Of a stretch of DNA of 26,719 nt, positions 178 through 15,285 are shown one piece after another. The number at the start of each line of letters is the position of its first letter. Positions within the stretch are counted from its first letter, which is position 1. A program made the translations under genes and the position numbers. Under the pieces are notes generated by a model, which saw nothing but the letters and a program-made list of their open reading frames with translations, searched no databases and had not been told where the DNA came from. This stretch comes from a virus: positions 1 through 26,719 of the IMG/VR virus record IMGVR_UViG_3300023210_000180, one strand, 5' to 3'.

Positions 178-207
178 TTGACATTGTGTACCACAGTGTG
201 GTACAAT
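178..207 (+). promoter_or_regulatory. Sigma70-like promoter of the MoxR cassette
   Basis: A perfect -35 box TTGACA (178-183) is separated by 18 bases from TACAAT (202-207). Transcription would begin near 214, giving a leader of about 65 nt before the MoxR start codon. The leader carries the first copy of the AACCTACA palindrome. The spacer contains a 19-bp perfect palindrome, so the promoter is probably controlled by a repressor. Confidence 0.75.
187..205. promoter_or_regulatory. Putative operator, 19-bp perfect palindrome inside the promoter
   Basis: TGTACCACA-G-TGTGGTACA is a perfect odd-centred palindrome with 9-base arms. It fills the spacer of the promoter and overlaps the first bases of the -10 box, the classical position for a repressor that blocks RNA polymerase. 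Its length and symmetry fit a dimeric regulator. I found no second copy of this exact sequence in the window. Which protein binds it is not visible; the RHH protein at 4361 and the HTH protein at 15052 are candidates. Confidence 0.65.
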
Positions 208-241: not shown

Positions 242-260
242 AACCTACAATTTGTAGGTT
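242..260. repeat. AACCTACA palindrome, copy 1 of 4 (leader)
   Basis: AACCTACA-ATT-TGTAGGTT: two 8-base arms around a 3-base centre. It lies in the untranslated leader, 6 bases before the GGAG ribosome binding site of the MoxR gene. The arms are identical in all four copies and only the centre changes. As DNA it could bind a dimeric protein; as RNA it would form an 8-bp hairpin just upstream of the ribosome binding site. Confidence 0.85.
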
Positions 261-277
261 ACAACTGGAGAACGACA

Positions 278-1342
278 ATGAGTGAATCTTTATTGAATGA
301 AATGCGCACTGTGAACCACAAGCAAGCAGGGGCGCTAATCTTAGCCAACCCCAACGTGCGCTACATGCTACGCGGTGAACCCGGGGTGGGTAAATCGATG
401 ATTGCTGAAGCTATAGCACAGGCAACGGGCTACGACCTAGCAATGGTCGACGTGCCTAACCTAGACTTGGGCGACGTAGCTATGCCTGTGATTGACCACG
501 AGCACAGGGTCACACGCTACTACCCTAACGCACGCTTCGGTCTGACTACAGGTAAGCCTGTGGTGATCTGCCTCGATGAGTTTACCAAGGGCGCCGACCC
601 TGTGAAGAACATGCTTCACCCTATGTTAGAAGTATTTAGACCTAGACTTGGTGACTTACCTATCCCTGAAGGCAGCATTGTCTTTATGACAGGCAACATG
701 GATACGGACGGTGTGGGCGATGGACTCGCGCAGCATACTAGGCAGCGCATCGTTGAGCTTACCATACGCAAGCCTAACTCTACCGAATGGCTACAGTGGG
801 CAGCAGCTAATAACATCCATCCTGTTGTTATGGCATGGGTAGACCGCTATCCGCAGGCCCTCGCATCTTACCTTGATGGTGCTAACAACGAGTTCATATT
901 CCACCCTGCTAACCCACAGGACAACGTGGTCTCGCCTCGTACCCTTGAGATTGCAAGCCGTATCATTTGGCAGATGGGATTCTTCGATTCAGATTCGCTA
1001 CTCGCTGCGTTAACAGGTGCAGCAGGTGCGCCGTATGCGGAGAGCCAAGTGTCATTCATTCGGTTCCAAGAGTCGCTGCCCTCAGTGAGTTCTATCATCA
1101 CGTCGCCTAACACAGCGATGATTCCAGAGGACGTGGGCGCTCGGTCGGTACTGACCTTCGGACTGTTACAGCACGTGGAGAAGGATAACCTGAGCAATAT
1201 CCTCAAGTACCTACGCCGCATGGAGGAGGAGTTCCAAGTCATATTCTGTGTGACTCTCGCACGGCACGAGTCCAAGAAGCAGATCGCCTTCACTAACGGT
1301 GACTTTGCATTGTGGGCAGCCGACAACGAAGACTTACTGTAA
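278..1342 (+). CDS. MoxR-type AAA+ ATPase
   Basis: A 354-aa AAA+ ATPase of the MoxR/CobS kind. Walker A is GEPGVGKS (residues 33-40), Walker B is VVICLDE (95-101), a sensor-1-like TGN is at 138-140 and an arginine-finger-like HTRQR at 153-157. MoxR ATPases are ring-forming chaperones that remodel or load metal into a partner, nearly always together with a VWA protein encoded next door, as here. The frame stays open upstream to 212, but I chose ATG 278 because GGAG lies 7 bases before it, the same arrangement as in the next two genes, and because the upstream stretch holds the leader palindrome. The substrate is unknown. In some cyanophages a relative is annotated CobS; nothing here points to cobalamin synthesis. 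Confidence 0.9.
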   Translation: MSESLLNEMRTVNHKQAGALILANPNVRYMLRGEPGVGKSMIAEAIAQATGYDLAMVDVPNLDLGDVAMPVIDHEHRVTRYYPNARFGLTTGKPVVICLDEFTKGADPVKNMLHPMLEVFRPRLGDLPIPEGSIVFMTGNMDTDGVGDGLAQHTRQRIVELTIRKPNSTEWLQWAAANNIHPVVMAWVDRYPQALASYLDGANNEFIFHPANPQDNVVSPRTLEIASRIIWQMGFFDSDSLLAALTGAAGAPYAESQVSFIRFQESLPSVSSIITSPNTAMIPEDVGARSVLTFGLLQHVEKDNLSNILKYLRRMEEEFQVIFCVTLARHESKKQIAFTNGDFALWAADNEDLL

Positions 1343-1360
1343 ACCTACAATATGTAGGTT
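1342..1360. repeat. AACCTACA palindrome, copy 2 of 4 (MoxR/VWA junction)
   Basis: AACCTACA-ATA-TGTAGGTT. Its first base is the last base of the MoxR stop codon, and the GGAG of the VWA gene follows directly after its last base. The whole intergenic gap is therefore palindrome plus ribosome binding site. Confidence 0.85.
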
Positions 1361-1371
1361 GGAGAACGACT

Positions 1372-2550
1372 ATGTTAGCAGACAGAAGATTCAAAGCGAT
1401 CAAGATCGGACTGATGCGTTCGAAGGAGTTCGGTCTACTGCGCGGCGTGGCTATGCACGGTAAGACTTATCTCACTACTGACGTACCCACAGCAGCAACC
1501 GATGGGCGTGACTGTTGGTTCAACCCCGACTTCCTGTTCAAGCAGGTGCATAACGAGGGAGACAAGGGTGCGGCGTTTGTCATGGTGCACGAGTGGTTAC
1601 ACAAGGCAGGCATGCACATGGTGACTTACCGTAGGCTTGCCGAGCAGGACGCTAGGCGTACCAACATGGCGACTGACTATTGGATAAACGACCGCATCAT
1701 TGTGGCTGACCCTTATCACACACTGACTGAGATGCCCATCGACGAGAACGGCAAGGCTATCGGTCTGTACGACAAGAAGTACCACGAGTGGGCAGTGAAG
1801 CGCATCTTCCAAGACCTTGAGCAGGAGGAGCAAGGCAGTGGGGGCAGCGGGTTCGATGAGCACGATTGGGAGGGTGCGAAGGACTTGGGCACTGAGGAGA
1901 AGGCGAAACTTGCAGAGGACATCAAGCAAGCTATCCGACAAGGACTGCATGCAGATGCCAAAGCAGGACAAGGCGGTCTACAGGACGCACTGGGGCTTGC
2001 CGAGCTGGTCACACCCAAGGTGAGTTGGCGCACATTACTGCGAATGTTTATGAACTCGACATGTAGAAAGAAGGAGCAGTCGACATGGCGACGACCAAAC
2101 CGCAGGTTCCTGCACAACGACGTGATAATGCCGACGTTGCAGGGTAACAGTATCAGTGAGGTGGTGATTACGCGTGACACTTCGGGGTCTATGCTCTTCG
2201 GTAACAGACTCAGAGATGCGACGAGCGAGATCATTGGCATTGCTAAAGCAGTCTCTATCGACAAGATACACTTCATTGATTGGGACGGACAGGTGGAGAA
2301 TCATGAGATTTACTCCAGTGACTCTTTGGTTGATGCACCTGCTATGCGATCTGCAACGGGTGGAGGCGGGACTGACCCGACGTGTGTATCTGACTACCTG
2401 AAGGAGAAGGGCATCAAGCCTGACTGCATAATCATGCTGACTGATGGCGAGATTTACAATTGGGGGAATTGGACTGCTCCAATTCTGTGGGCAATAACGA
2501 ACGACACGAAGATAACCGCCCCTGTGGGCAAAACAATTCAAATTGATTAA
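1372..2550 (+). CDS. VWA-domain protein with N-terminal metallopeptidase-like region (DUF2201 type)
   Basis: A 392-aa protein that looks like the DUF2201 architecture. The N-terminal part has an HExxH motif, HEWLH at residues 73-77, followed by a conserved-looking DYWIND stretch (102-107). The C-terminal VWA domain has a complete MIDAS: DTSGS (269-273), the threonine of GGGGTD (334) and TDGE (357-360). A charged linker (about 150-200) joins the two. VWA proteins of this class are the usual partners of MoxR ATPases and bind substrates through the MIDAS metal. ATG 1372 was chosen over an in-frame start at 1312 because GGAG is 7 bases upstream and the longer form would overlap the MoxR gene. Whether the HEWLH region is an active protease cannot be judged from sequence. 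Confidence 0.88.
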   Translation: MLADRRFKAIKIGLMRSKEFGLLRGVAMHGKTYLTTDVPTAATDGRDCWFNPDFLFKQVHNEGDKGAAFVMVHEWLHKAGMHMVTYRRLAEQDARRTNMATDYWINDRIIVADPYHTLTEMPIDENGKAIGLYDKKYHEWAVKRIFQDLEQEEQGSGGSGFDEHDWEGAKDLGTEEKAKLAEDIKQAIRQGLHADAKAGQGGLQDALGLAELVTPKVSWRTLLRMFMNSTCRKKEQSTWRRPNRRFLHNDVIMPTLQGNSISEVVITRDTSGSMLFGNRLRDATSEIIGIAKAVSIDKIHFIDWDGQVENHEIYSSDSLVDAPAMRSATGGGGTDPTCVSDYLKEKGIKPDCIIMLTDGEIYNWGNWTAPILWAITNDTKITAPVGKTIQID

Positions 2551-2568
2551 ACCTACAATATGTAGGTT
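2550..2568. repeat. AACCTACA palindrome, copy 3 of 4 (VWA/next gene junction)
   Basis: AACCTACA-ATA-TGTAGGTT, identical to copy 2. It starts on the last base of the VWA stop codon and is followed immediately by the GGAG of the next gene. Confidence 0.85.
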
Positions 2569-2579
2569 GGAGAAGAGTG

Positions 2580-3431
2580 ATGAGTGCAATATCAAACAGT
2601 GCAGTATTAGTGAAGCTAAACATTAGTGTGTGGGGTGCGAGCAAGCGCAACAAGCAGCTTGAGCAGGAGTTAGCAGCAAGCAAGAACGCTGACCCTAAAG
2701 CTACACGCACATACGACAACCTGATGGTGGGTTCGTCTGGTCACAAAGACCTGCAACTCTACGCAGGCAACTCTCGCCTTTGGCACGCAGCGATGACGCT
2801 GCCTTGGGACGACAAGGGTTGGCGCCTATGCCCGACGAGTATGTTTATGGACTACAAGGCGCAGCACAATTGGAAGCGCCAAGAGTTCGAGCGCATGGTG
2901 AATCAGTTTGGCAACAAGTACGCCACGTACCGCGAAGTAGCTAAGGAGTATCGGGGTGACATCTTCAGTGAGGAGGACTACCCCTCTGTTGATGAGGTGC
3001 TGAGTAAGTATGCGTGGAACTTTGCCGTAGCGCCTGTTCCCGCCAGTGGTCATCTGTGTATAGACCTGCCAGAGCAGGAGTTAGCAGAGATACGTACCGC
3101 CTGTGACAGCGAGGTGGAACGCAGGGTACAGGAAGCGGTGAAGGAGAACGAGCGCAGACTGCGTAAGCAACTCGATCACATAAGCGCGAAGTGCGCGGGT
3201 GCAGACGGGGACGACAAACGATGGCATGATACTTTTGTATCTAACCCATTGGAGCTATGCCGCATGCTTAAGCACCTGAATGTTACCAACGACCCCAAGC
3301 TGGAAGAAGCACGCAAGAAGCTAGAGGAGATCATGGAGGGCAAGACCAAGGAGATGTTCAAAGAGCAGCCCGAAGTGCGTGAAGAAGTTAAGAAAGAAGT
3401 CGACGAAATTATTAAAACCTATGAGTGGTAA
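2580..3431 (+). CDS. Unrecognised third protein of the MoxR/VWA cassette (possibly DUF3150-like)
   Basis: A 283-aa protein of unknown function. The opening LVKLNISVWGASKRNK resembles, from memory, the start of DUF3150 phage proteins, which also occur beside MoxR/VWA genes; this is a suggestion and not a firm match. The middle is aromatic and charged. The C-terminal third (about residues 165-280) is rich in Glu, Lys and Arg with heptad-like spacing, so it is probably coiled coil. No membrane segment or enzyme motif is visible. ATG 2580 is preferred to GTG 2577 because it keeps the GGAG-plus-7 spacing of the two genes before it. Shared palindromes and spacing show it is expressed with MoxR and VWA and may be their adaptor or substrate. 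Confidence 0.75.
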   Translation: MSAISNSAVLVKLNISVWGASKRNKQLEQELAASKNADPKATRTYDNLMVGSSGHKDLQLYAGNSRLWHAAMTLPWDDKGWRLCPTSMFMDYKAQHNWKRQEFERMVNQFGNKYATYREVAKEYRGDIFSEEDYPSVDEVLSKYAWNFAVAPVPASGHLCIDLPEQELAEIRTACDSEVERRVQEAVKENERRLRKQLDHISAKCAGADGDDKRWHDTFVSNPLELCRMLKHLNVTNDPKLEEARKKLEEIMEGKTKEMFKEQPEVREEVKKEVDEIIKTYEW

Positions 3432-3441
3432 GGAGAACAAC

Positions 3442-4377
3442 ATGAGCTTTAAAGAAGTATTCAGAACTGGAGGAATGGTCGGGCAAATAGCTACTCGACT
3501 AAAGCAAAACGATTTGTACAGGTTCACCAACCTGCCTGTGAATGTTTACCATTGGCGTACTTTTGATGAGCCAGTGGAGTTTCCTGAAGTAGTTAGCGAT
3601 ATTTACGTAGGAGCAAGACAGGCACAAAAGCTGTTGTATCAAACGCTACTTCAGATTGCGCCCAAGATGCACAAACTTAACTTTTGTGTAGACCTTGATT
3701 ACAACATGACTTTTACGAGCGTGTTCGTCTACGAGGGGCTAGAGTGTGTGGGTAGGATTACCTACAGCGACAACGGCTCACTTGAGTTTACCAACGCACG
3801 TATATATGAAGCTATGTACCGTAAGCGTGATATGAAAACTAGGTCGGTGGCTAAAGCGGTAACGATAATCCGTAAGTATTTTTATGGCATGACTAAGGTC
3901 GAACGCCTTAATTCCGTGGCAGAGAGAGTATCGGGAGCTATTTCCTCAGCGCACAGCGATACTGTATACAAACGGCGCAACGCTAAGTCGCGCGTGATGG
4001 AAGAACTAGAGAAAGCGATGCTAGGCAACCAACAGCTAATGCAAGCAGTTAAGCAGTTTTTTCAAGAGGAAAACAAACCCTACATACTAGAGCAGTACGT
4101 AGAAGCGGCAGACACCCACGAGCTAGTGGAGGAAGCATATCGCGCACGAGGGCAAGGTTTGTACATCCATGCAGTAGGCAATTGTTTCGAGGTGTACCGC
4201 AAAGGGGACACTCGCGTTCGCACTTACCAACGTGACGCCCTACCTGACAAGGTGCGTGGTGCGTTAGGCATGCTTAAACTTTCAAACGACAACAGTTTCG
4301 TTGATAACGTAGGCTTTAAGTTTGAGGCAGATAAATTTTGGGTAGCAGAGGAGATATCAAATGAGTTCGGAAACTAG
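3442..4377 (+). CDS. Hypothetical protein, fourth gene of the MoxR/VWA cassette
   Basis: A 311-aa protein that I do not recognise. It appears to be mixed alpha/beta: an N-terminal half with strands such as FTSVFVYEGLECVGRITY, a helical and charged middle (about residues 155-225), and a C-terminal strand-rich part with LYIHAVGNCFEVYRKGD. No Walker, protease or nuclease motif is apparent. AGGAG at 3431-3435 with a 6-base spacer supports ATG 3442; the frame is open further upstream to 3379 but that would overlap the preceding gene. Unlike the three genes before it, it is not preceded by a clear AACCTACA palindrome. Its end overlaps the RHH gene by 17 bases, so the two are probably translationally coupled. 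Confidence 0.75.
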   Translation: MSFKEVFRTGGMVGQIATRLKQNDLYRFTNLPVNVYHWRTFDEPVEFPEVVSDIYVGARQAQKLLYQTLLQIAPKMHKLNFCVDLDYNMTFTSVFVYEGLECVGRITYSDNGSLEFTNARIYEAMYRKRDMKTRSVAKAVTIIRKYFYGMTKVERLNSVAERVSGAISSAHSDTVYKRRNAKSRVMEELEKAMLGNQQLMQAVKQFFQEENKPYILEQYVEAADTHELVEEAYRARGQGLYIHAVGNCFEVYRKGDTRVRTYQRDALPDKVRGALGMLKLSNDNSFVDNVGFKFEADKFWVAEEISNEFGN

Positions 4378-4549
4378 ACGTAGAGGCGCAGGCGTTAAGC
4401 CTGCTATGGTACACACTAACGTGCGCCTGCCCGAGTACGTAGTCAACTACTTTAAGGACAACTACCCCAACTACACTGCGGAGATACGCAGGGTGCTCGA
4501 AGTCCACGTAGATAACGCAGTCGTGTTCGGAGACGACGCTACCAACTAA
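4361..4549 (+). CDS. Small ribbon-helix-helix-like DNA-binding protein
   Basis: A 62-aa protein with the layout of an Arc/MetJ-type ribbon-helix-helix fold: a basic N-terminal tail (SSETRRRGAG), a strand-like VHTNVRLPEYV (about residues 17-27), a first helix (VVNYFKDNYP), and a second helix starting at NYTAEIRRVLEVHV. RHH proteins dimerise and bind short palindromic operators, often controlling their own operon. It is the last gene of the cassette, overlaps the previous gene by 17 bases, and has GAGGAG at 4348-4353. A copy of the AACCTACA palindrome overlaps its stop codon. I infer that it may bind one of the two palindrome types in this cassette. The fold call rests on a pattern read by eye. 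Confidence 0.7.
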   Translation: MSSETRRRGAGVKPAMVHTNVRLPEYVVNYFKDNYPNYTAEIRRVLEVHVDNAVVFGDDATN

Positions 4550-4566
4550 CCTACAAATTGTAGGTT
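4548..4566. repeat. AACCTACA palindrome, copy 4 of 4 (cassette end)
   Basis: AACCTACA-AAT-TGTAGGTT, with arms identical to the other copies. It begins inside the stop codon of the RHH gene and ends 12 bases before the terminator stem. No gene start follows it directly, so unlike copies 1-3 it cannot act on a downstream ribosome binding site. Confidence 0.85.
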
Positions 4567-4578
4567 GCATTAAAGATT

Positions 4579-4605
4579 AACCCCGCCTAAGTGCGGGGTT
4601 TTTTT
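4579..4605 (+). terminator. Rho-independent terminator of the MoxR cassette
   Basis: An 8-bp stem AACCCCGC/GCGGGGTT (4579-4586 with 4593-4600) with a 6-base loop runs into seven consecutive T. It closes the cassette and separates it from the polymerase unit, whose promoter starts 5 bases later. Confidence 0.92.
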
Positions 4606-4977: not shown

Positions 4978-6793
4978 GACTTACTACGCGAAAGACTACG
5001 GACTACGCAAGCTAACGACAGAAGAATATATCCGCGACCCTCGCTTCGAGGTGATTGGCGTTGCGGTCAAGAACTATCATCAAGATACAGCTGCTGCCCC
5101 ACTTTGGTTTTCAGGTTCAAAGAAACAGGTGGCGCAATTCCTTTCTCAGTTTGATTGGGGGAACTCAATCGCTCTTGCGCATAACGCCATGTTTGATATG
5201 GCGATTCTTAACTGGCACTTTGATATTCGCCCCAAGAAGATTGCAGATACTCTAGCAATGGCACGGGCTATCCACTCCATCGAAGTAGGTGGCAGCCTAG
5301 CCGCCCTATCTGAATACTATAACTTAGGCGCGAAGGGCACAGAGGTGCACGATGCGATAGGCAAGCGGCGCCTTGATTTCACCAAGGCAGAGATGGAAGC
5401 CTACGGTGGCTACTGCCAACAGGACGTGGAGCTTACCTACAAACTGTTTAAGGTACTCGTCAAAGATTTCCCTGTGTTCGAGCTTAACCTGATTGACCTT
5501 ACCATCCGCATGTTTAGTGAGCCTAGTTTAGTACTAGATAAAGAGATACTGAAGGCCCACTTAAAGGAGGTTAAGGATACTAAAGAAGCACTAATGGCTA
5601 AGGTGACGCACGACAAGAAAAAGCTAACGAGCAACCCACAGTTCGCTGAGCTGCTGCGGAGCTACGGTATAGAGCCGCCCACTAAGATAAGCCCCACGAC
5701 AGGCAAAGAAACATTCGCCTTCGCTAAGAGTGACGAGGCTTTCAAGGCACTGCAAGAACATGAGAACCCAGAGGTACAGGCTATAGTTGCTGCCCGACTT
5801 GGGGTTAGGTCTACGATAGAAGAGACACGCACTCAACGCTTTATCGACATTGCAGAACGTGGCACACTCCCAATCCCCCTGCGTTACTACGCTGCCCATA
5901 CGGGACGGTGGGGTGGGGATGACAAGATCAATATGCAGAACCTCCCCCGAGGCTCACAGCTTAAGAAGGCTATGTGCGCACCACGCGGGTACAAGTTTAT
6001 CGACTGTGACTTGTCGCAGATTGAAGCCCGTACTCTAGCATGGCTAGCGGAAGAGGATGACTTGGTGGAGGCGTTCGACAGAGGCGACGATGTGTATAAG
6101 ATCATGGCATCGGCTATCTATGACAAGCCCGAGACTGATATAACTAAAGATGAGCGGTTCGTTGGTAAGACTACGATACTAGGAGCAGGCTACGGCATGG
6201 GCGCTGCTAAGTTCCAAGCGCAGTTGAAAAACTTCGGAGTCTATCTGCCCGAGGAAGAATGCCAGAGGATTATTGATGTATACCGTGATACATACCCCCA
6301 GATACCTGCCCTGTGGAGAGAGGCTAACAAGGCACTCAAGACCATGCAGGACGACAAGGTGGACGAGCTAGGGCGTGCGGGTATACTCACAATAGAAGGC
6401 TCAACAGGTATACGCATGCCTAATGGACTGTACATAAAGTATCCCAACCTGCGAGTTCAAGAGTCAGAAGAGGAAGGCGGGTATGACGAAACGGTTTACG
6501 ACACCCGCAAAGGTAGGGCTATAATCCCTAACCGCATTTACGGCGGGAAAGTTATCGAGAATGTTTGTCAGGCATTGGCTCGTATTGTGATCGGCGAACA
6601 GCTTCTTAGAGTTGCTAAGAAATACAGAGTAGTAATGACGGTACATGACGCGATAGGTTGTATCGTCCCAGAAGATGAAGTAGAAGAGGCGATGCGCCAA
6701 GTTGAAAAAATAATGAGGGTGCGTCCTACTTGGGCACCTGATCTGCCTTTAGATTGTGAAGGTGGCTACGGTAATTCATACGGAGAATGTTAA
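4952..6793 (+). CDS. Family A DNA polymerase with 3'-5' exonuclease
   Basis: A 613-aa replicative polymerase of the phage PolA type. The N-terminal DEDDy exonuclease has VDFET (D7, E9), HNAMFD (N78, D82) and YCQQD (Y154, D158). The polymerase domain has motif A DLSQIEAR (catalytic D353), motif B with K406 and GYG (GKTTILGAGYG), and motif C VHD (H565, D566). There is no 5' nuclease domain, which is usual for phage replicative members. The position equivalent to E. coli F762, four residues after the motif B lysine, is leucine (L410). It overlaps the VRR-NUC gene and is followed by the largest non-coding gap in the window. It would be the main replicative polymerase. Confidence 0.95.
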   Translation: MDLLVVDFETYYAKDYGLRKLTTEEYIRDPRFEVIGVAVKNYHQDTAAAPLWFSGSKKQVAQFLSQFDWGNSIALAHNAMFDMAILNWHFDIRPKKIADTLAMARAIHSIEVGGSLAALSEYYNLGAKGTEVHDAIGKRRLDFTKAEMEAYGGYCQQDVELTYKLFKVLVKDFPVFELNLIDLTIRMFSEPSLVLDKEILKAHLKEVKDTKEALMAKVTHDKKKLTSNPQFAELLRSYGIEPPTKISPTTGKETFAFAKSDEAFKALQEHENPEVQAIVAARLGVRSTIEETRTQRFIDIAERGTLPIPLRYYAAHTGRWGGDDKINMQNLPRGSQLKKAMCAPRGYKFIDCDLSQIEARTLAWLAEEDDLVEAFDRGDDVYKIMASAIYDKPETDITKDERFVGKTTILGAGYGMGAAKFQAQLKNFGVYLPEEECQRIIDVYRDTYPQIPALWREANKALKTMQDDKVDELGRAGILTIEGSTGIRMPNGLYIKYPNLRVQESEEEGGYDETVYDTRKGRAIIPNRIYGGKVIENVCQALARIVIGEQLLRVAKKYRVVMTVHDAIGCIVPEDEVEEAMRQVEKIMRVRPTWAPDLPLDCEGGYGNSYGEC

Positions 6794-6995
6794 GTTTCGC
6801 AGGGGGTTTTAAGTGTTTTTCCCCCCTGCATGCCCCAGCGGGCGGTGGGTAGGTCGCGAAGCCACAACACCCGCAGTGTATAACAGTAGCTCATCACTCC
6901 TGCGTTAGCAGTTAGTTCTCCGCACTGTGTATACACCGGCTAGCCCACGCTACGGGCCTTTAATTTAGTAAGTATATAATTTTTAGGGGATAAAA
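6794..6995. other. 202-base intergenic region with several potential stems
   Basis: No credible gene lies here. Visible elements are: GCAGGGGG (6799-6806) pairing with CCCCCTGC (6822-6829), with no T run after it; GCGGG (6838-6842) with CCCGC (6870-6874), enclosing GTGG (6845-6848) with CCAC (6862-6865); GTGTATA (6876-6882) with TATACAC (6930-6936); and GCCC (6943-6946) with GGGC (6954-6957). A TATAAT at 6975-6980 has no good -35 partner. AGGGG at 6985-6989 serves the next gene. The region could be a structured RNA, a processing site or a replication origin next to the polymerase gene. I saw no tRNA signature. Confidence 0.5.
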
Positions 6996-7226
6996 ATGAC
7001 TACACGAAAAAAGAAAGCAAAGATAAGCAATGTAAATGATTTGCGCAACAATTTATCTGACGTTTTTGAAGCGTTGCGTGCCGGTAACATAGCGCATAAA
7101 GAGGCTAAAGAAATTTCTAACTTGGCGGGCAAGATGATTAACTCCGCTAAGGTGCAGCTTGATTACCATGGCCTTCGTAAGGACGAAGACTTTAAGATAG
7201 ATTTTCTGCACTCTGAGGATAAGTAG
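6996..7226 (+). CDS. Small hypothetical protein
   Basis: A 76-aa protein with a lysine-rich N-terminus (TTRKKKAKIS) followed by what appear to be amphipathic helices (VNDLRNNLSDVFEALRAGNI, KEAKEISNLAGKMINSAKVQL) and an acidic tail. I do not recognise it. AGGGG sits 6 bases before the ATG, so it is probably translated. It opens the long run of small overlapping genes after the stem-rich gap. A nucleic-acid-binding or regulatory role is possible, but no motif shows it. Confidence 0.7.
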   Translation: MTTRKKKAKISNVNDLRNNLSDVFEALRAGNIAHKEAKEISNLAGKMINSAKVQLDYHGLRKDEDFKIDFLHSEDK

Positions 7227-7228
7227 TT

Positions 7229-7924
7229 GTGGAGGTAAGAAAATGTTGCGGGTGCGGTAAAACGCACCCTCTTACCTTGTTTGGTGTTAGTGGCTACTAC
7301 ACAACAGCGGATGGAACACGCAAAATGAACAGGAGGAAAGAATGCAACTCTTGTAGACAGTTTAAACGCAACGGCGGTAGACCATCCAAGCCTAAAGTAA
7401 GCCCGTCTCAAACACTTGTTAAGGTAAAAGGAAAAACTTATAAGCAGTGCAGCACCTGCCAAGAAAGTAAAAAACTCGAAGCGTTTAACAAAGATAAAAA
7501 TGCACTAACGGGCTACGCACATTATTGTAGGAACTGTGCAAGCGAACGCAGAAGGAAAGATTATGCGACAAGACCGGAAACACGTATCGTAAAGCGGGCT
7601 TGGGACGCTAATAATAAAGCAAAAGTTAGGGCGCAAGAAAAAATAAGACACCAACGGTACTACGCTAAGCCAGAAGTAAAGGCACGACGTGCGGAATGGC
7701 TTAAACGTTGGAAATTGGAGAATGCAGAAAAATTAGTAACGGGGTCTAAAAAACGTGCAAAGGAAATGACCGAAGCCTACGTAAAACATTTGCTGTGCGC
7801 GGGCGCGGGCGGGAAGCATATACCCAAATCAAGATGGCCCGAGATACCACAAGAACTTATAGAAGTTAAGAGAGTACACCTCATGTTAAAAAGAGCGGTT
7901 AAACAATTAGAGGAAAACAAATGA
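7229..7924 (+). CDS. Zinc-ribbon protein, HNH/endonuclease VII-like zinc finger without a clear nuclease core
   Basis: A 231-aa basic protein with two treble-clef or zinc-ribbon-like units: C6/C7 and C9 with C39 and C42, then C74/C77 with C100/C103. The second unit, KQCSTCQESKKLEAF followed by GYAHYCRNC, is the pattern often found in front of HNH or endonuclease VII domains. What follows is a long Lys/Arg-rich helical stretch (about residues 105-180) and a C-terminal helix, without a recognisable HNH signature. The start is GTG 7229; the next ATG would remove the first cysteines. It begins 2 bases after the previous stop and ends with an ATGA overlap. It is probably a nucleic-acid-binding protein, perhaps a nuclease. 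Confidence 0.7.
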   Translation: MEVRKCCGCGKTHPLTLFGVSGYYTTADGTRKMNRRKECNSCRQFKRNGGRPSKPKVSPSQTLVKVKGKTYKQCSTCQESKKLEAFNKDKNALTGYAHYCRNCASERRRKDYATRPETRIVKRAWDANNKAKVRAQEKIRHQRYYAKPEVKARRAEWLKRWKLENAEKLVTGSKKRAKEMTEAYVKHLLCAGAGGKHIPKSRWPEIPQELIEVKRVHLMLKRAVKQLEENK

Positions 7925-8121
7925 GTGGTAAAGGTAGTAGACGTAGACCGACCCTTATCCCTGCTAAAGACTTCGGGGAAAACTGGGCAAAAATCTTTGA
8001 GAAACCAAAACAGAAGGAAGAAGAGAATGTTAACAGCAGAAGTACCAAGAACGAAAATGAGCGACCCCGTAGTGAACAAGCAGACAGCCCTACAGACACA
8101 AACGGGCGGGACGCATTATAA
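7921..8121 (+). CDS. Small basic hypothetical protein
   Basis: A 66-aa polar and basic protein (SGKGSRRRPTLIPAKDFGENWAKIFEKPK) with a low-complexity tail. Its ATG overlaps the stop of the preceding gene as ATGA, and GAGG lies 6 bases upstream, which argues for real translation. Its last 95 bases are also read in another frame by the DUF3310 gene. I recognise no function. Confidence 0.6.
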   Translation: MSGKGSRRRPTLIPAKDFGENWAKIFEKPKQKEEENVNSRSTKNENERPRSEQADSPTDTNGRDAL

Positions 8122-8293
8122 AGGCATGGCTATTCAACCTGCGGAATACGCAGAGAAGAACGGCTTATCCCTGCTAGAAGGTAATGTAGTGAAGTACATA
8201 ACTAGATGGAAGTTGAAGGGGCAACCCTTATCGGACTTACAAAAAGCTAAGCACTGCATCGACCTGCTAATCGAGATACATAACGTCAAATGA
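8027..8293 (+). CDS. DUF3310 family protein (T7 gp1.7-like)
   Basis: An 88-aa protein with the DUF3310 signature: GGTHYKGMAIQPAEYA, then NVVKYITRWKLKG, then LQKAKHCIDLLIE. The family contains T7 gp1.7, a nucleotide kinase that acts on TMP/dTMP, so a role in nucleotide supply is plausible, but small members may differ. The frame is open from 7925; ATG 8027 was chosen because AGGAAG lies 6 bases upstream and the family usually begins a short way before the GGTHY motif. It overlaps the previous gene by 95 bases in another frame and the next by 4 bases (ATGA). Confidence 0.85.
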   Translation: MLTAEVPRTKMSDPVVNKQTALQTQTGGTHYKGMAIQPAEYAEKNGLSLLEGNVVKYITRWKLKGQPLSDLQKAKHCIDLLIEIHNVK

Positions 8294-8418
8294 AAATAAC
8301 TATAGAAGTAGATGGGGCAGACGCCGAAGAGCTTATGGCTATGATACAACGTGCAGCCGAAGCGGTGGAAAAACTCGAAGCTATACTTGAGGAATTCGAA
8401 GATGCTGATAAAGTGTAA
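8290..8418 (+). CDS. Very small acidic helical protein
   Basis: A 42-aa frame whose ATG overlaps the stop of the DUF3310 gene as ATGA. The product is acidic with a strand-like MKITIEVDG start and a long amphipathic helix (AEELMAMIQRAAEAVEKLEAILEE). It is followed by a 17-base overlap with the GNAT-like gene. Its last part carries the ribosome binding site of that gene, so translation through it may couple the two. I recognise no family, and such a short frame may be only a translational coupler. Confidence 0.5.
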   Translation: MKITIEVDGADAEELMAMIQRAAEAVEKLEAILEEFEDADKV

Positions 8419-8917
8419 CTTCGCTGACCACGCGTACTTAATAGAGGATGACCCCGTACGCCCTAAGTTATTCAAAGATAACAGCGTGCGGTTTGAAGAC
8501 CCGTTTCATGTATACGCAGAAGTTAACGACGAGACGGGGGAGATAGCCGCAGTTGTTTGCACAATCATCTGCAAGTTTGTTCCGCAAGACGAGTACCAGA
8601 TAAAGCTAGTTGCTATGGGCAAAGTAGAGCAGATAGAAGAACAGCTAAAAGAACGTGAAGAAATGTACGGTGATTTAGGCGTGGTGCTTTGTCCATATTC
8701 TATCTGGTCTTACCAAAAAGGGCACGGTAGAAAGTTGATTAACAACCTGCTTGAAGTTGCACCAGTAATGCACCCAGAGGTAGACGCAGTAATAACTATG
8801 TCTCCGCATACAGAAACTGCTATGAAATTTCACTTGCGCAACGGGGCAGGAATATTTGCTACCAATACAAAGTGCGTAAATTACGAATACGAGGTGGAAG
8901 ATGTCATACTTCACTGA
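8402..8917 (+). CDS. GNAT-like acetyltransferase
   Basis: A 171-aa protein resembling a GNAT-fold acyltransferase. Central strands are visible (EIAAVVCTIICKFV), then WSYQKGHGRKLINNLLEV at about 102-119, where GHG plus RK fits the acetyl-CoA-binding GxG/A loop and following helix, and HTETAMKFHLRNGA (136-149), similar to GNAT motif B. The usual Q/R three residues before the first glycine is Tyr here. Phage GNAT-like proteins can modify host or phage proteins; the target is unknown. ATG 8402 is supported by GAGGA 8 bases upstream; the frame is open to 8351 but overlaps more. Similar proteins occur, as I recall, in marine metagenomic phages. Confidence 0.65.
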   Translation: MLIKCNFADHAYLIEDDPVRPKLFKDNSVRFEDPFHVYAEVNDETGEIAAVVCTIICKFVPQDEYQIKLVAMGKVEQIEEQLKEREEMYGDLGVVLCPYSIWSYQKGHGRKLINNLLEVAPVMHPEVDAVITMSPHTETAMKFHLRNGAGIFATNTKCVNYEYEVEDVILH

Positions 8918-9092
8918 CCCTATGGCTGCGATAGAAGAAGCAGAGTACTTGGCGAAAGAAAACCAAGTGCGTATGTTTGTAGTAGAAACTGCGCCTAACC
9001 GTATTGAAGTAATGACAGCCGAACAAGCGTACACGGTGGACGGCATAGTGCTAGAAACAATAGTCCCTAAAGGGGGACACGACATATTCTAG
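8901..9092 (+). CDS. Small hypothetical protein
   Basis: A 63-aa protein beginning MSYFTDPMAAIEEAEYLAKE and ending with strand-like segments (RMFVVETAPNRIEVMTAEQ, GIVLETIVPKGG). It overlaps the end of the GNAT-like gene by 17 bases and has GAGGTGG just upstream of its ATG. No domain is recognised. Its short strand-helix pattern suggests a compact folded protein. Confidence 0.65.
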   Translation: MSYFTDPMAAIEEAEYLAKENQVRMFVVETAPNRIEVMTAEQAYTVDGIVLETIVPKGGHDIF

Positions 9093-9101
9093 GAGATAAA
9101 G

Positions 9102-9287
9102 ATGTTTGTAAAAGACTATGGGTACTATGATATAGAAGGCAGCAAGCGCGGGCCTAACCGCAATAAGAAAAGTAATGAACGCAACGTTAAAAAACTTAAA
9201 GCCCTGTGGGATGAATTTGACGATGAAACACGGATGCGAGCGGCGAAAACAATACGCTGCTTAGAAACGCAGGAAGCGTACAGATGA
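9102..9287 (+). CDS. Small basic hypothetical protein
   Basis: A 61-aa, Lys/Arg- and Asn-rich protein (SKRGPNRNKKSNERNVKKLK) with a helical C-terminus (ETRMRAAKTIRCLETQE). AGGAG lies 7 bases before ATG 9102, and its stop overlaps the endolysin start as ATGA. The charge suggests nucleic acid binding, but no family is recognised. Confidence 0.65.
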   Translation: MFVKDYGYYDIEGSKRGPNRNKKSNERNVKKLKALWDEFDDETRMRAAKTIRCLETQEAYR

Positions 9288-9691
9288 TTACCCCTGCGCT
9301 TATGTGCGTAGCAATCGCCGTATACTTTGAGGCGCGGGGTGAACCGACAGCGGGGCAGCTTGCTGTAGCTCATGTGATACATAACAGAATTGAAGACCCA
9401 CGTTACCCAGACAATGCGTGTGACGTGGTTAAGCAGGGGTACTACTGGAACGGTGTACCTATAAGAAACAAGTGCCAGTTTAGTTTTTATTGTGACGGTA
9501 GGTCGGACGACCCGAAGAACAAACAGGCATGGTTTAACTCGTTGTACATTGCGCACTTAAGTGGCTTCGTACCTGATATTACAGAAGGTGCAACTCACTA
9601 CCACAGTACAAAAGTGTTCCCCCAGTGGGCGTATAACGGCGAGATAACTACTAAGATCAGCAAGCATATTTTTTACACAGGCATTAACTAG
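9284..9691 (+). CDS. SleB-type cell wall hydrolase (Hydrolase_2), probable endolysin
   Basis: A 135-aa protein matching the Hydrolase_2/SleB catalytic domain: YFEARGEP (putative catalytic E16), GQLAVAHVIHNRI, and the conserved CQFSFYCDG (64-72). The family cleaves peptidoglycan glycan strands as lytic transglycosylases, so this is the likely host-lysis enzyme. There is no cleavable signal peptide; the short hydrophobic ALMCVAIAVYF at the N-terminus belongs to the domain. No cell-wall-binding domain is present. AGGAAG lies 7 bases before the ATG. It sits among small early-looking genes and not beside the virion genes, and no holin or spanin is visible nearby. Confidence 0.88.
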   Translation: MITPALMCVAIAVYFEARGEPTAGQLAVAHVIHNRIEDPRYPDNACDVVKQGYYWNGVPIRNKCQFSFYCDGRSDDPKNKQAWFNSLYIAHLSGFVPDITEGATHYHSTKVFPQWAYNGEITTKISKHIFYTGIN

Positions 9692-9939
9692 TGACTACTA
9701 CCAAGATAGATGTAATGACTCCCGCAGAGAAAGAGAGACTGCGCATGGAGTTAGAACGGCAGGTTAAAGAGTATAAGAAAGCAGGGGGTGTCGTGACTCA
9801 GTGCCCCCCTCGCGCATTCACACCAGACGAAGGCCCGAAGAGAAAATTTGCTGGTAGCCAGTTTGATTCGCTAACCGACCCAACCAACCGAGACGTGGGT
9901 GCGATGCGCCCTACAAAAAACAAAGGTGGTAGCGAATGA
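9691..9939 (+). CDS. Hypothetical protein
   Basis: An 82-aa hydrophilic protein with an amphipathic N-terminal helix (PAEKERLRMELERQVKEYKKAGG) and a Pro/Arg/Asp-rich tail containing QCPPRAFTPDEGPKRKF. The start is uncertain: GTG 9691 directly overlaps the endolysin stop, while ATG 9715 (MTPAEK) is the alternative; neither has a strong ribosome binding site. No family is recognised. Confidence 0.55.
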   Translation: MTTTKIDVMTPAEKERLRMELERQVKEYKKAGGVVTQCPPRAFTPDEGPKRKFAGSQFDSLTDPTNRDVGAMRPTKNKGGSE

Positions 9940-10007
9940 AAGTGTGGCAAAGCGCCACAAAGTGTACAAAAAGCAACATATAAGGCGCATTAAAGTGGAA
10001 AAGCAAC
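9940..10007. other. Short gap with a hairpin and a direct repeat
   Basis: TGTGGC (9943-9948) and GCCACA (9954-9959) form a 6-bp stem with a 5-base loop and no T run. AAAAGCAACAT occurs twice, at 9969-9979 and 9999-10009, the second running into the SNase start codon. This is one of the few gaps in a block of overlapping genes, so a weak promoter or processing site is possible, but no good promoter boxes are seen. Confidence 0.4.
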
Positions 10008-10415
10008 ATGTATGAATACAATTGCAAGATCGTAAGAGTCGTTGATGGAGACACCGTAGATGTGGATATTGACCTTGGCTTTGATACTTGGCGTTGCGGG
10101 GAGCGCATACGTCTGTATGGTATTGATACTCCAGAGTGCCGCACGAGAGATGCAGAAGAGAAAGCTGCCGGACTCTTGGCAAAGGAGTTTGTCGAAGACA
10201 CGCTGCACGTCGGAGGAACGTACACCCTGACTACCAGAGAGAAGGGTAAGTTCGGGCCGTATTTAGGTGTTATAATGCTAAGCGACAGAACTTCTATTAA
10301 CGCCGCACTAGTAAGCGAGCACTTAGCGGTGCCGTACCACGGGCAAAGCAAGCAAGACATAGACGACGCCCACGCAGCAAACTACGAAATACTCAAAGAG
10401 AAGGGTCTCCTATGA
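10008..10415 (+). CDS. SNase-like (staphylococcal nuclease family) nuclease
   Basis: A 135-aa OB-fold nuclease of the thermonuclease family. It has VVDGDTVDVDID (D13, D15, D20) and RLYGIDTPE, giving R35, D40, T41 and E43, the calcium-binding and catalytic residues in the same relative positions as in staphylococcal nuclease. The segment where the second catalytic arginine (R87) normally sits, in a KYGR-like motif, reads KFGPYLG, with proline (P84) at that position. There is no signal peptide, so it should act inside the cell, for example in host DNA breakdown or DNA repair. GGAAAAG precedes the ATG, and it overlaps the next gene by 4 bases (ATGA). Confidence 0.85.
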   Translation: MYEYNCKIVRVVDGDTVDVDIDLGFDTWRCGERIRLYGIDTPECRTRDAEEKAAGLLAKEFVEDTLHVGGTYTLTTREKGKFGPYLGVIMLSDRTSINAALVSEHLAVPYHGQSKQDIDDAHAANYEILKEKGLL

Positions 10416-11077
10416 CAGCTTGGTCTTACAGCAGCATAAGCACGTTTAAGCAATGCCCTAAGAAATACTACCATTTGAAAGTGGCTAAGGATGTTAAAGA
10501 TTCAGGTAACGCTGCGACTTTCTATGGCAACGAGGTGCATAAAGCTGCCGAGCACTATATACGAGACGGTGAGCCTATACCCGCTAAGTTTAACTATGTT
10601 AAGAAAATACTAGATGCCTTTAATCGCATCGAGGGCGAGAAGCATTGTGAAATACGTATGGCGGTAGCCAAAGAAGACAACGTTTATAAACCCACTAGCT
10701 TTTTTGCTAAAGACGTTTGGTGGCGTGGTATTGTCGATTTGCTAATAGTAAATGGCGAGAAAGCGTACATTGTAGATTATAAGACAGGCAAGAACGCTAA
10801 GTACGCAGACACTAAACAACTTGACTTAATGGCTGGCGCTACGTTTGTGCATTACCCCGAAGTAAAAGTAATTAAGTCTGCTCTAGCATACGTAGTAAGT
10901 AACGAGTTCATACAAAAGAAACACACTGTGGACATGTATAAGTCATACCTTAGTGTGTTTGACGACGAGTTAGAAAGACTAGCAGTATCAGAAGAAAACG
11001 ATGTGTGGAATGCAATCGACGGACCGCTGTGTGCGTTCTGTCCGGTCACTAGCTGTGAGCATAATAGGAAACGATAA
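10412..11077 (+). CDS. Cas4/RecB-like PD-(D/E)XK exonuclease with probable Fe-S cluster
   Basis: A 221-aa nuclease of the RecB/Cas4 group. Visible elements are SYSSISTFKQCPKKYY (C15), GNEVHKAAE (H43), RGIVDLL (D109), and VDYKTGK (D122, K124), followed by a helix beginning at TKQLDLMAG. The C-terminal CAFCPVTSC supplies C207, C210 and C215. One N-terminal plus three C-terminal cysteines is the arrangement that binds a 4Fe-4S cluster in Cas4 and AddB. In phages such proteins act as 5'-3' exonucleases for recombination or host DNA degradation. It overlaps the SNase gene by 4 bases and shares a base with the next gene. No CRISPR genes are nearby, so a Cas4 adaptation role is not suggested. Confidence 0.85.
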   Translation: MTAWSYSSISTFKQCPKKYYHLKVAKDVKDSGNAATFYGNEVHKAAEHYIRDGEPIPAKFNYVKKILDAFNRIEGEKHCEIRMAVAKEDNVYKPTSFFAKDVWWRGIVDLLIVNGEKAYIVDYKTGKNAKYADTKQLDLMAGATFVHYPEVKVIKSALAYVVSNEFIQKKHTVDMYKSYLSVFDDELERLAVSEENDVWNAIDGPLCAFCPVTSCEHNRKR

Positions 11078-11448
11078 TGACCGCGCATAAAAAAGACAAC
11101 GGTCGAGCAAGACCTTGGGAGTATGGAGAAGAAGCGCATCAATGTTTTTATCCAAACTGCAATCTTATAGCAGGTATCGAGAGGGAGGACGCGCAAGTAG
11201 AATGGGACGCACGGCTTCAACTAGATACAATATATAAGATGTTTCCGCCAGTAGTGAAACTAGCTATACAAGAAAACACTAAGATTGACCAAAAATACCC
11301 TAGCATAATGCTACCTATTTACTTGCACCCCGAGTGCGCGGCTGAGTGGGGCATGCAGCTAATAAAAGATGCTTTGGAAGCGAACTACAGAGTAGGCAGG
11401 CGCCTAAGTAACAGAGAAAAGGAATGGGAAGATTATGACCAAGACTAA
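11077..11448 (+). CDS. Hypothetical protein with possible zinc site
   Basis: A 123-aa protein starting at the TAATG junction with the exonuclease gene. It contains HQCFYPNC (C23, C28) and a later HPEC, which together could form a CxxxxC...HxxC zinc site. The rest is helical (LQLDTIYKMFPPVVKLAIQEN, GMQLIKDALEANYRVGRRL) with an acidic end. I do not recognise the family. Its place between two DNA-processing genes suggests a role in DNA metabolism. Confidence 0.65.
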   Translation: MTAHKKDNGRARPWEYGEEAHQCFYPNCNLIAGIEREDAQVEWDARLQLDTIYKMFPPVVKLAIQENTKIDQKYPSIMLPIYLHPECAAEWGMQLIKDALEANYRVGRRLSNREKEWEDYDQD

Positions 11449-11737
11449 ACGAGATTACAAAGCTGAGTACGCTAAGTACCAAGGCACTGAAGAGCAAAAG
11501 AAGAAACGCGCTCAACGCAATGCTGCACGCCGTAAGGCTGAGAGAGAAGGCAAGGTATCCAAGGGTGATGGCAAAGATGTTGCGCATAAGAAAGCAATGG
11601 ATAAAGGCGGCAAAAACTCTGACGGTACTAAGGTAGAGACAGCAAGCCGCAACCGTTCTTTCAGTCGAGACTCCAAAGGCAACTTAGTCTCTGAGACTAG
11701 CAAGCGTGAGCGCAAGAAGAAGACAACTAAAGCATGA
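11435..11737 (+). CDS. Small basic protein, possibly a degenerate HNH-type protein
   Basis: A 100-aa, highly Lys/Arg-rich protein. The stretch EGKVSKGDGKDVAHKK, then GGKNSDGTKVETASRNRSF (about residues 39-75), resembles small phage HNH proteins in which KGDGKDVDHKDG is followed by NS..NL......NRS. Here the Asp before the His is Ala (A50), the following Asp/Gly is missing and no second His is visible. It may therefore be a catalytically dead or diverged HNH-like DNA-binding protein. It overlaps both neighbours by 14 and 4 bases, so it is translated within the nuclease/helicase run. The HNH link is an inference from motif memory. Confidence 0.6.
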   Translation: MTKTKRDYKAEYAKYQGTEEQKKKRAQRNAARRKAEREGKVSKGDGKDVAHKKAMDKGGKNSDGTKVETASRNRSFSRDSKGNLVSETSKRERKKKTTKA

Positions 11738-13287
11738 AGATAATAAACAATCGAGCAATGGTGCTTAAGACTAAGCGCCCGCACCTTGTGACTGAACGAG
11801 TAAAGAACTACAAAGTAGCGGAGCAGGAAGACGGCTACTTCAAACTAGCACTGCCGTGGCGCTTGCACGAAGCCCAAGTGCTAAACAGCTTAGGCGTAAA
11901 AAACGTGCCGTCTCCCATAGGGCGGGACTACGAGTGGTCGGGGCGCTTTGACCCGTTTGCTCACCAGAAGAAGACGGCTTCTTTTTTAACACTTAATAAG
12001 AAAGCGTTTTGTTTCAACGAGCAAGGCACAGGCAAAACTGCTTCTGTAATATGGGCAGCAGATTACCTTATGCAGCAGGGGATTATAAACCGCGTGCTTG
12101 TAATCTGCCCTCTGTCTATTATGAAATCAGCATGGCAGGAAGACCTGTTTAAGTTTGCTATGCACCGCACTTGTTCTGTGGCACACGGAACTTCAGCTAC
12201 GCGCAGAAGGATAATTAACGCAGGGTCGGAGTTCGTCATCATAAACTTTGATGGAGTAGCTGTAGTAAAAGAAGAAATAGAGAAGGGCGGGTTTGACCTG
12301 ATTGTGGTAGACGAGGCAAGTGCCTACAAGAACGCACAGACAAACCGATGGAAAATACTACGTGATTTGTGCAAAGGAATAGACTGGCTGTGGATGCTTA
12401 CGGGTACTCCAGCAGCACAAGCACCGACCGATGCGTTTGGATTAGCTAAACTTGTCGCCCCGAAAAACGTACCCCAGTACTTCGGGCAGTTCAAAGATAA
12501 GGTCATGTACAAAGTGTCGCAGTACACGTGGCGTCCTAAGCCTGACGCGAGTGAGACAGTCCATGCTGTGTTGCAACCGGCGATAAGATTCCGCAAGGAC
12601 GAATGCCTAGACTTGCCTAAAGTGACTTTTGTGGACAGAGAAGCGCCACTCACCAAACAGCAAGCGTCGTACTACAAACAACTAAAAGACCGCATGATAA
12701 TGGAAGCGGATGGCGAGCAAGTCACTTCAGTTAACGCCGCAACTAACCTCAACAAGCTACTGCAAATATCAGGCGGGGCTGTGTACTCGGACGACCGAGA
12801 GGTCATTGAGTTTGACGTTAGCAACAGGCTTAAGGTTATTAAAGAAGTAATAGACGAAGCGTCACACAAGATACTTGTATTCGTGCCCTTTACCCATACT
12901 ATTGAATTACTTAAAGAATTTTGTAACAAGAACAAGATCAGTGCGGACATAATTTCAGGCAAGGTGTCGGTCAACAAGCGTAGCGAGATAATTAAAGACT
13001 TTCAAACTACCGACAAGATCAAGGTGCTAATCATCCAGCCAATGGCAGCATCGCATGGTCTTACGTTAACCGCTGCTAACACAGTGATATGGTATGCACC
13101 CGTCACCAGTGTTGAGACTTACCTACAAGCAAACGCTCGCATCGACAGGCCGGGGCAACACAACCCAATGACTGTGGTGCACATTGAGGGTAGTGAAGTA
13201 GAGCGTAAGCTATACAAGATGTTGCGGTCTAACATAGACAACCACACTAAAATTGTAGATTTATATAAACAAGAAATAGATGCTTGA
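11734..13287 (+). CDS. SNF2-like superfamily 2 helicase/ATPase
   Basis: A 517-aa SNF2-type ATPase. It has NEQGTGKT (Walker A, K101/T102), LVICPLSIMKSAW (motif Ia), VVDEAS (DExx box, D193/E194), TGTPA (motif III, 223-227), HGLTLTAANTVIWY (motif V) and QANARIDRPGQ (motif VI). Family members translocate on double-stranded DNA and remodel protein-DNA complexes or branched DNA; phage members are linked to replication or recombination. No extra domain is fused. It overlaps the preceding gene by 4 bases, and its stop codon lies inside the -35 box of the next promoter. Confidence 0.93.
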   Translation: MKIINNRAMVLKTKRPHLVTERVKNYKVAEQEDGYFKLALPWRLHEAQVLNSLGVKNVPSPIGRDYEWSGRFDPFAHQKKTASFLTLNKKAFCFNEQGTGKTASVIWAADYLMQQGIINRVLVICPLSIMKSAWQEDLFKFAMHRTCSVAHGTSATRRRIINAGSEFVIINFDGVAVVKEEIEKGGFDLIVVDEASAYKNAQTNRWKILRDLCKGIDWLWMLTGTPAAQAPTDAFGLAKLVAPKNVPQYFGQFKDKVMYKVSQYTWRPKPDASETVHAVLQPAIRFRKDECLDLPKVTFVDREAPLTKQQASYYKQLKDRMIMEADGEQVTSVNAATNLNKLLQISGGAVYSDDREVIEFDVSNRLKVIKEVIDEASHKILVFVPFTHTIELLKEFCNKNKISADIISGKVSVNKRSEIIKDFQTTDKIKVLIIQPMAASHGLTLTAANTVIWYAPVTSVETYLQANARIDRPGQHNPMTVVHIEGSEVERKLYKMLRSNIDNHTKIVDLYKQEIDA

Positions 13288-13313
13288 CAATGTAAATCTT
13301 GTTGTTCTACACT
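13284..13313 (+). promoter_or_regulatory. Sigma70-like promoter of the SSB/primase unit
   Basis: TTGACA (13284-13289), an 18-base spacer, and TACACT (13308-13313). The -35 box contains the TGA stop of the SNF2 gene. Transcription would start near 13320, about 20 bases before the ATG at 13341, with a strong AAGGAGGAG binding site between them. The spacer lacks the palindrome seen in the promoter at 178, so the two promoters probably respond differently. Confidence 0.75.
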
Positions 13314-13340
13314 GGCTCTCCCTGCTATTAAGGAGGAGCC

Positions 13341-13727
13341 ATGAAAGACTCAGCAGACAAGCTAACCAAAATCTACATAAAGATGCGGAACGCTATCAGA
13401 GAGAAAGAAGAAGAGATAAAGCAAATAAAAAAGCAGCAAGAAACCGTAGTAGATAAGCTGCTTGCGCTCTGTGAAGAGCAAGACCTCGATAGTCTAAGGA
13501 CGGCCTCTGGCACAGTTAGCCGTAGAGTGCAGTCTCATTACTGGACTAGCGACTGGGAAAGAATGTACGACTTCCTCAAGGAGCACGACGCTTTCCATCT
13601 ACTCGAGAAACGTATATCTGGTCTCGCCATGAAACAGTTTCTTGAAGACAACCCTGACCTTATGCCTGCGGGTTTACAAGTCAACCGTAAGTATATTGTT
13701 TCTGTTTTAAAGCCGCGTAAAAAATGA
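13341..13727 (+). CDS. Phage protein with N-terminal coiled coil
   Basis: A 128-aa protein. Residues 1-45 are a Lys/Glu-rich coiled coil (KIYIKMRNAIREKEEEIKQIKKQQE). The rest, GTVSRRVQSHYWTSDWERMYDFLKEHDAFHLLEKRISGLA and ending in VSVLKPRKK, is a conserved type I recall from marine phage genomes without known function. It faintly recalls Gam-like nuclease inhibitors in having a helical hairpin, but there is no direct evidence. It is the first gene after the promoter at 13284, has AAGGAGGAG upstream, and overlaps the next gene by 4 bases, so it should be well expressed with the SSB. Confidence 0.75.
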   Translation: MKDSADKLTKIYIKMRNAIREKEEEIKQIKKQQETVVDKLLALCEEQDLDSLRTASGTVSRRVQSHYWTSDWERMYDFLKEHDAFHLLEKRISGLAMKQFLEDNPDLMPAGLQVNRKYIVSVLKPRKK

Positions 13728-15052: not shown

Positions 15053-15285
15053 TGAGCTATGGCTACACTAAGCGGCTCAGTAGTCTGAATAAGCAGGCTG
15101 ACGGCTCCATGCTAGGTGTAAAGCTAGGTCGCGTGTGCATTTCGCAAGAAGTGCCCGTTGCCGAAGTCGCACACCAGCTTGGGGTTAGTCGGCAAGCAGT
15201 TTACAACTGGTTTACAGGTGTACATGAGCCGAGCAACGAGCTAAAAGATATTATTAAAAATCTAATAATAGAGTATAAAAAATGA
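15052..15285 (+). CDS. Small helix-turn-helix DNA-binding protein
   Basis: A 77-aa protein with a clear helix-turn-helix: VPVAEVAHQLGVSRQAVYNWFTG (about residues 33-55). It resembles XRE-type or phage regulatory proteins. ATG 15052 overlaps the SSB stop as TAATG; the frame is open to 15034 but the upstream ATG lacks a better binding site. It overlaps the primase gene by 4 bases. It may regulate phage transcription or bind origin DNA, and is one candidate for the palindromic operator at 187. Confidence 0.75.
   Translation: MSYGYTKRLSSLNKQADGSMLGVKLGRVCISQEVPVAEVAHQLGVSRQAVYNWFTGVHEPSNELKDIIKNLIIEYKK

Follow-up and report, generated by a model that had tools for sequence, protein, structure and literature searches.

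The window considered here is the whole of a 26,719-bp virus record in IMG/VR (IMGVR_UViG_3300023210_000180), the left end of which lies shortly upstream of an operon that opens with a MoxR-like gene. This operon is punctuated by four copies of a palindrome, AACCTACA-N3-TGTAGGTT, the first of them downstream of a promoter-like site and the last directly ahead of a terminator-like hairpin (Table 1). The 8-bp arms are the same in all four copies, and only the centres vary. Copies 2 and 3 overlap the upstream TAA stop codon by its last A and abut a GGAG (at 1361 and 2569), and copy 4 overlaps the preceding stop codon by two bases. A fifth match is absent from the record even when up to three mismatches are allowed, a tolerance at which dinucleotide shuffles of the window give 0.14 +/- 0.35 matches by chance. 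A preliminary description, made from the sequence alone, had reported the four copies with their coordinates, their invariant arms and varying centres and their uniqueness in the window, all of which were confirmed by search and shuffles; the overlap of copies 2 to 4 with stop codons, the abutment of copies 2 and 3 on GGAG, and the terminator after copy 4 were likewise found as described.

Table 1. Palindrome copies, genes and predicted signals at the left end of the window
Feature	Position	Strand	Remarks
Promoter TTGACA-18-TACAAT, TG ahead of -10	178..207	+	sigma-70-like, predicted only
Second, unlike palindrome TGTACCACAGTGTGGTACA	187..205		inside the promoter (between -35 and -10), kept in several relatives
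Palindrome copy 1, AACCTACA-ATT-TGTAGGTT	242..260		leader of the MoxR operon, ~+29 to +47 from predicted transcription start
MoxR-like AAA ATPase	278..1342	+	
Palindrome copy 2, centre ATA	1342..1360		MoxR/VWA junction, on MoxR stop codon, abutting GGAG
Metallopeptidase-like/VWA-like protein (DUF2201)	1372..2550	+	
Palindrome copy 3, centre ATA	2550..2568		VWA/gene 3 junction
Gene 3	2580..3431	+	distant relative (24%) of phage MinM2 protein annotated DUF3150
Gene 4, fast-evolving unknown protein	3442..4377	+	5' junction without palindrome in the window
Small ribbon-helix-helix (RHH)-like protein	4361..4549	+	
Palindrome copy 4, centre AAT	4548..4566		on RHH stop codon, directly ahead of terminator
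Terminator-like hairpin with T-tract	4579..4600	+	directly after palindrome copy 4

Since the window starts just ahead of the MoxR operon, most of the palindrome array lies outside it and becomes visible in related uncultivated phages. A pattern scan of IMG/VR with the exact palindrome gave 29 stretches, in many of which it is repeated and placed at gene junctions; screening at the protein level yielded 27 loci that include the VWA gene, and a profile of gene 3, used to search more widely, retrieved 80 loci and brought the distinct palindrome sequences to about two dozen, while in some distant relatives among these 80 a clear array was not evident. The relatives usually carry a palindrome at the equivalent junctions (before MoxR, MoxR/VWA, VWA/gene 3, after RHH), often of another sequence, such as AACCTATA, GCGTACGG, AACATTGA, AAGGTCTC, AAGCTAGGG or AGGTACGG. 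In a scan for any palindrome, each larger contig proved to have its own family of 3-13 copies (2-13 when fragments with a partial region are included). The array reaches several kb further upstream in these relatives than the window does, and its copies span the whole rightward early region, from a divergent small-terminase-like gene to the terminator before the resolvase and DNA polymerase genes, beyond which none were found in the window's clade. The palindrome is thus not specific to the MoxR/VWA cassette, as had been supposed, and the idea of a dedicated, repeated control element is sustained by copies kept at the same junctions despite divergence of the genes and by their near-identical arms within a genome. 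A scan of bacterial genomes identified no host or prophage, only two metagenome-assembled contigs being matched.

The palindromes are perfect dyads with arms of 7-9 bp and centres of 3 bp, or of 0-6 bp in other lineages. Among 250 copies in selected contigs, a tally that by design admitted at most one mismatch, 194 are perfect, and nearly all single mismatches are confined to the outermost one or two positions. Were a hairpin all that counted, the arms would be expected to drift within a genome; that they are nearly identical among the copies of one genome argues for a sequence-specific reader.

This sequence can differ as a whole set between close phages. For instance, several core proteins of G014 and G016 are 96-98% identical, and L116 and L120 share MoxR and gene 3 at 98.9 and 99.3% identity, respectively, with unrelated palindromes in both pairs. 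Alignment of the flanks shows that the palindromes were replaced in place while the flanks were conserved. Loss of the palindromes from close relatives that keep the cassette had been named beforehand as evidence against a control element; the particular sequence is indeed often lost, but a different palindrome stands in its place. The joint rewriting of 7-13 dispersed sites between phages with core proteins more than 95% identical poses a puzzle for evolution. L123 (1722-1901) carries two palindromes of TGCCTAGG upstream of the first early gene while the remaining copies keep TGCATAGG, as if it had been caught in mid-switch. In L068 (G006; oriented 5044-16055), GAGTTTAGG is the family of the upstream part, and the MoxR cassette has AACCTACA and looks as though it had been transferred.

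That last cassette is an argument for regarding the sites as recombination or mobility boundaries, as had also been suggested, or as spreading elements of the repetitive extragenic palindrome kind: its MoxR, VWA and gene 3 products are 82-91% identical to those of AACCTACA phages against 64% for the polymerase, so that it apparently moved together with its palindromes. Recombination between similar repeats has moreover been reported in Cluster O phages (PMC4351075). Nevertheless, the positions of the sites are stable and their sequences differ, the opposite of what a spreading element would give, and replacement in place between conserved flanks weighs against a recombination boundary; we therefore consider this explanation very improbable.

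The gene that changes together with the palindromes is the first of the early region. Its product is predicted to be all-helical, of about 160-265 amino acids, and of no known family, and in most lineages with a complete region the gene has a palindrome upstream and another at or after its end. Co-variation was compared in a set of 22 genomes. Wherever two phages share a palindrome, their first-gene proteins can be aligned (14 of 14 pairs, 31-92% identity). Conversely, pairs such as G018/G010 and G002/G006, which have different palindromes, have unalignable first-gene proteins although their MoxR proteins are 85-91% identical, and in L116 and L120, which align at about 91-98% over most of the region, the first-gene module is the main early stretch without alignment. 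Some pairs with different palindromes do have related first-gene proteins; mostly their palindromes are similar, L116/L122 being the exception. L174 tells the most: its first-gene protein shares 58-59% identity with the proteins of G004 and G024 (AACCTACA) and 44% with that of L124, yet the palindrome of L174 is AACCTAGA, as in L124. Only three of 126 comparable columns separate the AACCTACA-type from the AACCTAGA-type proteins (P49A, R95Q and Q98K), and residues 95 and 98 fall within one predicted helix (93-102). This contrast would tie helix 93-102 to specificity, in a way that is suggestive rather than proof.

A change of host could also alter a whole palindrome set jointly between close phages, if the sites were read by a host factor and the first gene changed for other reasons. 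Such an explanation predicts neither palindromes on both sides of one gene, nor the co-variation of that gene, nor the pattern at R95 and Q98, and it appears improbable. These comparisons of sequence point to the first-gene product as the likeliest regulator.

Other phage proteins were considered as readers. RHH proteins commonly bind palindromes, and the RHH gene at the end of the cassette, which the preliminary description had proposed as the binder, is in the same operon as the sites. Its predicted DNA-contact strand does not follow the palindromes: GCGTACGG and AACATTGA phages, whose palindromes are unrelated, share the strand VHVNVRLP, and the strand differs between G000 and G006, both with AACCTACA in the cassette. 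As the specificity factor, this protein hardly deserves consideration. Gene 4 was rejected because G012 groups with AACATTGA phages in this gene and nonetheless has GCGTACGG palindromes. A small XRE-type helix-turn-helix protein, encoded at 15034-15285 in the window and conserved in many of these phages, has a recognition helix (VSRQTVYNWF) nearly unchanged across six palindrome classes and likewise does not follow the sites. Nor does the 284-residue product of another early gene, with 92% identity in G010/G018, which belong to different classes, and 70% in G018/G020, which share one.

As regards what the reader recognizes, the chief rival to a DNA operator is an RNA hairpin in the nascent or mature message, bound by the same first-gene protein in antitermination of the lambda N/nut kind or in RNA processing. 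The sites fold into stable hairpins, they are located between a stop codon and a Shine-Dalgarno sequence and directly before terminators, and the loop length varies within some genomes, which a hairpin would tolerate easily. In addition, the co-variation of the first early gene with hairpins that are particular to each phage and lie close to promoters is reminiscent of lambda N and boxB. In lambda, N is an antiterminator and boxB, present at few sites, has a conserved loop. In the arrays described here, on the contrary, there are 3-13 sites with conserved arms and a loop variable in sequence and length, the opposite of boxB-type recognition. As to a basic RNA-binding motif, an obvious arginine-rich stretch was not seen in the aligned first-gene proteins. 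Several features speak for DNA. The 56 copies with a single mismatch comprise 15 G.T, 17 A.C and 24 other mismatches, so that wobble pairs are not preferred and the G.U covariation that would be a sign of RNA structure is not seen among them. In several lineages the dyad is conserved to within 0-2 nucleotides of its centre (TGCATAGG-AATT, CCTAACA-N1, AGATATCT-N2), and this favours DNA because such positions cannot pair in an RNA hairpin. The centres, too, occur in both orientations, that is, along with their reverse complements. Recognition of RNA is for these reasons unlikely, while still the alternative with the most in its favour, and DNA as the target stands well ahead, although not beyond doubt.

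Of 24 palindromes that lead operons, 14 have a promoter-like site, and 12 of these 14 begin at +29 to +34, a placement that also favours DNA. With sites about 30 bp past promoters, between genes and before terminators, the simplest action, and probably the actual one, would be a transcription roadblock. The reading that we favour, and hold to be somewhat better than an even chance, is that the palindromes form a dispersed operator array for one phage-encoded, sequence-specific regulator of the early genes, most likely the first-gene product. We infer that this protein would bind each dyad in the DNA as a dimer and block or slow RNA polymerase, first just past the promoters and then at every gene boundary, thereby turning down the early genes, its own included. 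Upon exchange of the regulator gene, or a change in its specificity, the sites would be rewritten in place across the region. A tyrosine integrase was not found in 18 larger contigs, which may be incomplete records and in which other integrase types were not tested; a lysogeny repressor is accordingly not indicated.

A broader proposal, rather doubtful at present, is that these small helical proteins are regulators of a new family whose recognition helix can be swapped, serving up to 13 identical sites and undergoing whole lock-and-key switches of specificity, possibly in order to evade control by competing relatives. If true, it would amount to a heteroimmunity-like system in phages without sign of lysogeny.

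It is important to note several points that weigh against the operator array and its proposed reader. The first early gene lies outside the window, upstream of it, and the argument for the specificity helix stands on the single phylogenetic contrast of L174. The first-gene protein gives no significant sequence match in Pfam, PHROG or PDB, and structural searches (PDB, viral models) returned only common helical arrangements and nothing convincing. Its predicted model is of moderate quality (predicted local distance difference test score 75.6, predicted template modelling score 0.51), and the AlphaFold model of a second-family protein is too poor (54.1) to be used; homology between the two first-gene superfamilies was not established (hhalign probability 12%). 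The promoters are consensus matches that are partly homologous to each other. The spacer of the palindrome differs by one base within some genomes (G004, G006, L159), a variation that a rigid dimer would not usually show. In G006, AACCTACA has been retained in the MoxR cassette under an upstream array of GAGTTTAGG, and a site after the last gene, ahead of the terminator, is not obviously of use to a roadblock.

Two cultured phages offer laboratory systems for palindrome arrays of this kind. Synechococcus phage MinM2, which has MoxR, DUF3150 and VWA genes, contains GGTTCAG-N-CTGAACC in about 20 copies. In Rhizobium phage RHph_TM3_14A the sequence is GTTACC-N6-GGTAAC, with about 19 copies that match it more loosely. 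Both phages have sites on the two sides of the first early gene, and in both the array goes past the early region, unlike that of the window's clade. The part scanned of KPP25, a cultured phage whose polymerase is related, showed no array of this type, and a search of the open literature for arrays in these phages gave nothing.

Among known systems, phage phiC31 has dispersed palindromic repressor sites. The closest description to the present arrays concerns the Cluster O mycobacteriophages (Corndog), with 34 copies of a 17-bp repeat, 5'-TGTTCGG-N3-CCGAACA, described as being of unknown function (PMC4351075). According to that text, these repeats likewise have invariant arms (of 7 bp), a variable A/T-rich 3-bp centre, many intergenic copies and no clear orientation, and a dimeric binder has been proposed for them; in contrast to the arrays described here they are genome-wide, about a third of them inside genes, and the same text describes neither an actual binder nor coordinated switching between lineages (PMC4351075). 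None of the palindrome families tabulated for the lineages studied here has these arms. The stoperators of Cluster A mycobacteriophages, at which one phage-encoded regulator terminates transcription, are also dispersed sites with a lineage-specific motif that changes with the regulator (PMC6550527, PMC9283540). However, they are asymmetric 13-bp sequences, mostly in one orientation to transcription, whereas the present sites are symmetric with centres both ways. The motif and repressor of stoperators also diverge little by little as genomes become more distant, while the present sites can be replaced as a whole between near-identical genomes. The SPbeta repeated elements (SPBRE) are repeated intergenic sites read by one phage protein, the repressor MrpR, but the motif has 15 bp and is located in promoter regions, and MrpR is tyrosine-recombinase-like (PMC10516654). 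The start-associated sequences (SAS) and extended SAS (ESAS) of Cluster K are similarly near start codons, and the inverted-repeat consensus of ESAS varies by subcluster; they differ in that SAS are 13 bp long, asymmetric and located where translation starts, and ESAS have imperfect 17-bp arms and variable spacers, mostly of 4-13 bp (PMC3203893). Multi-copy palindromes of unknown function have been reported in a few phages, and for those of Cluster O the available text identifies no reader. New in the present case are a candidate reader that belongs to none of the known families and sets of sites that switch in a coordinated way from one near-identical phage to another. The series of about two dozen site sequences, the proteins that co-vary with them and near-identical genomes with other sets make the question of the reader directly testable.

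Some minor observations on these regions may be added. The palindrome TGTACCACAGTGTGGTACA inside the MoxR promoter is found again upstream of another early operon in G001-G005 and is probably the operator of a separate, different regulator. A copy of the main palindrome lies within the 3' end of the RHH coding sequence in L073 (G010) and L076 (G013), where it encodes RTAAVR. At 3727-3780 of L077 (G014, oriented), two copies 35 bp apart (start to start) enclose a ribosome-binding-like sequence but lack a gene between them, as though one had been cleanly deleted. Lastly, a tandem-repetitive stretch, which has an open frame made of short repeats on the antisense strand, precedes the last palindrome in L116 (11867-12961) and L120 (10764-11447).

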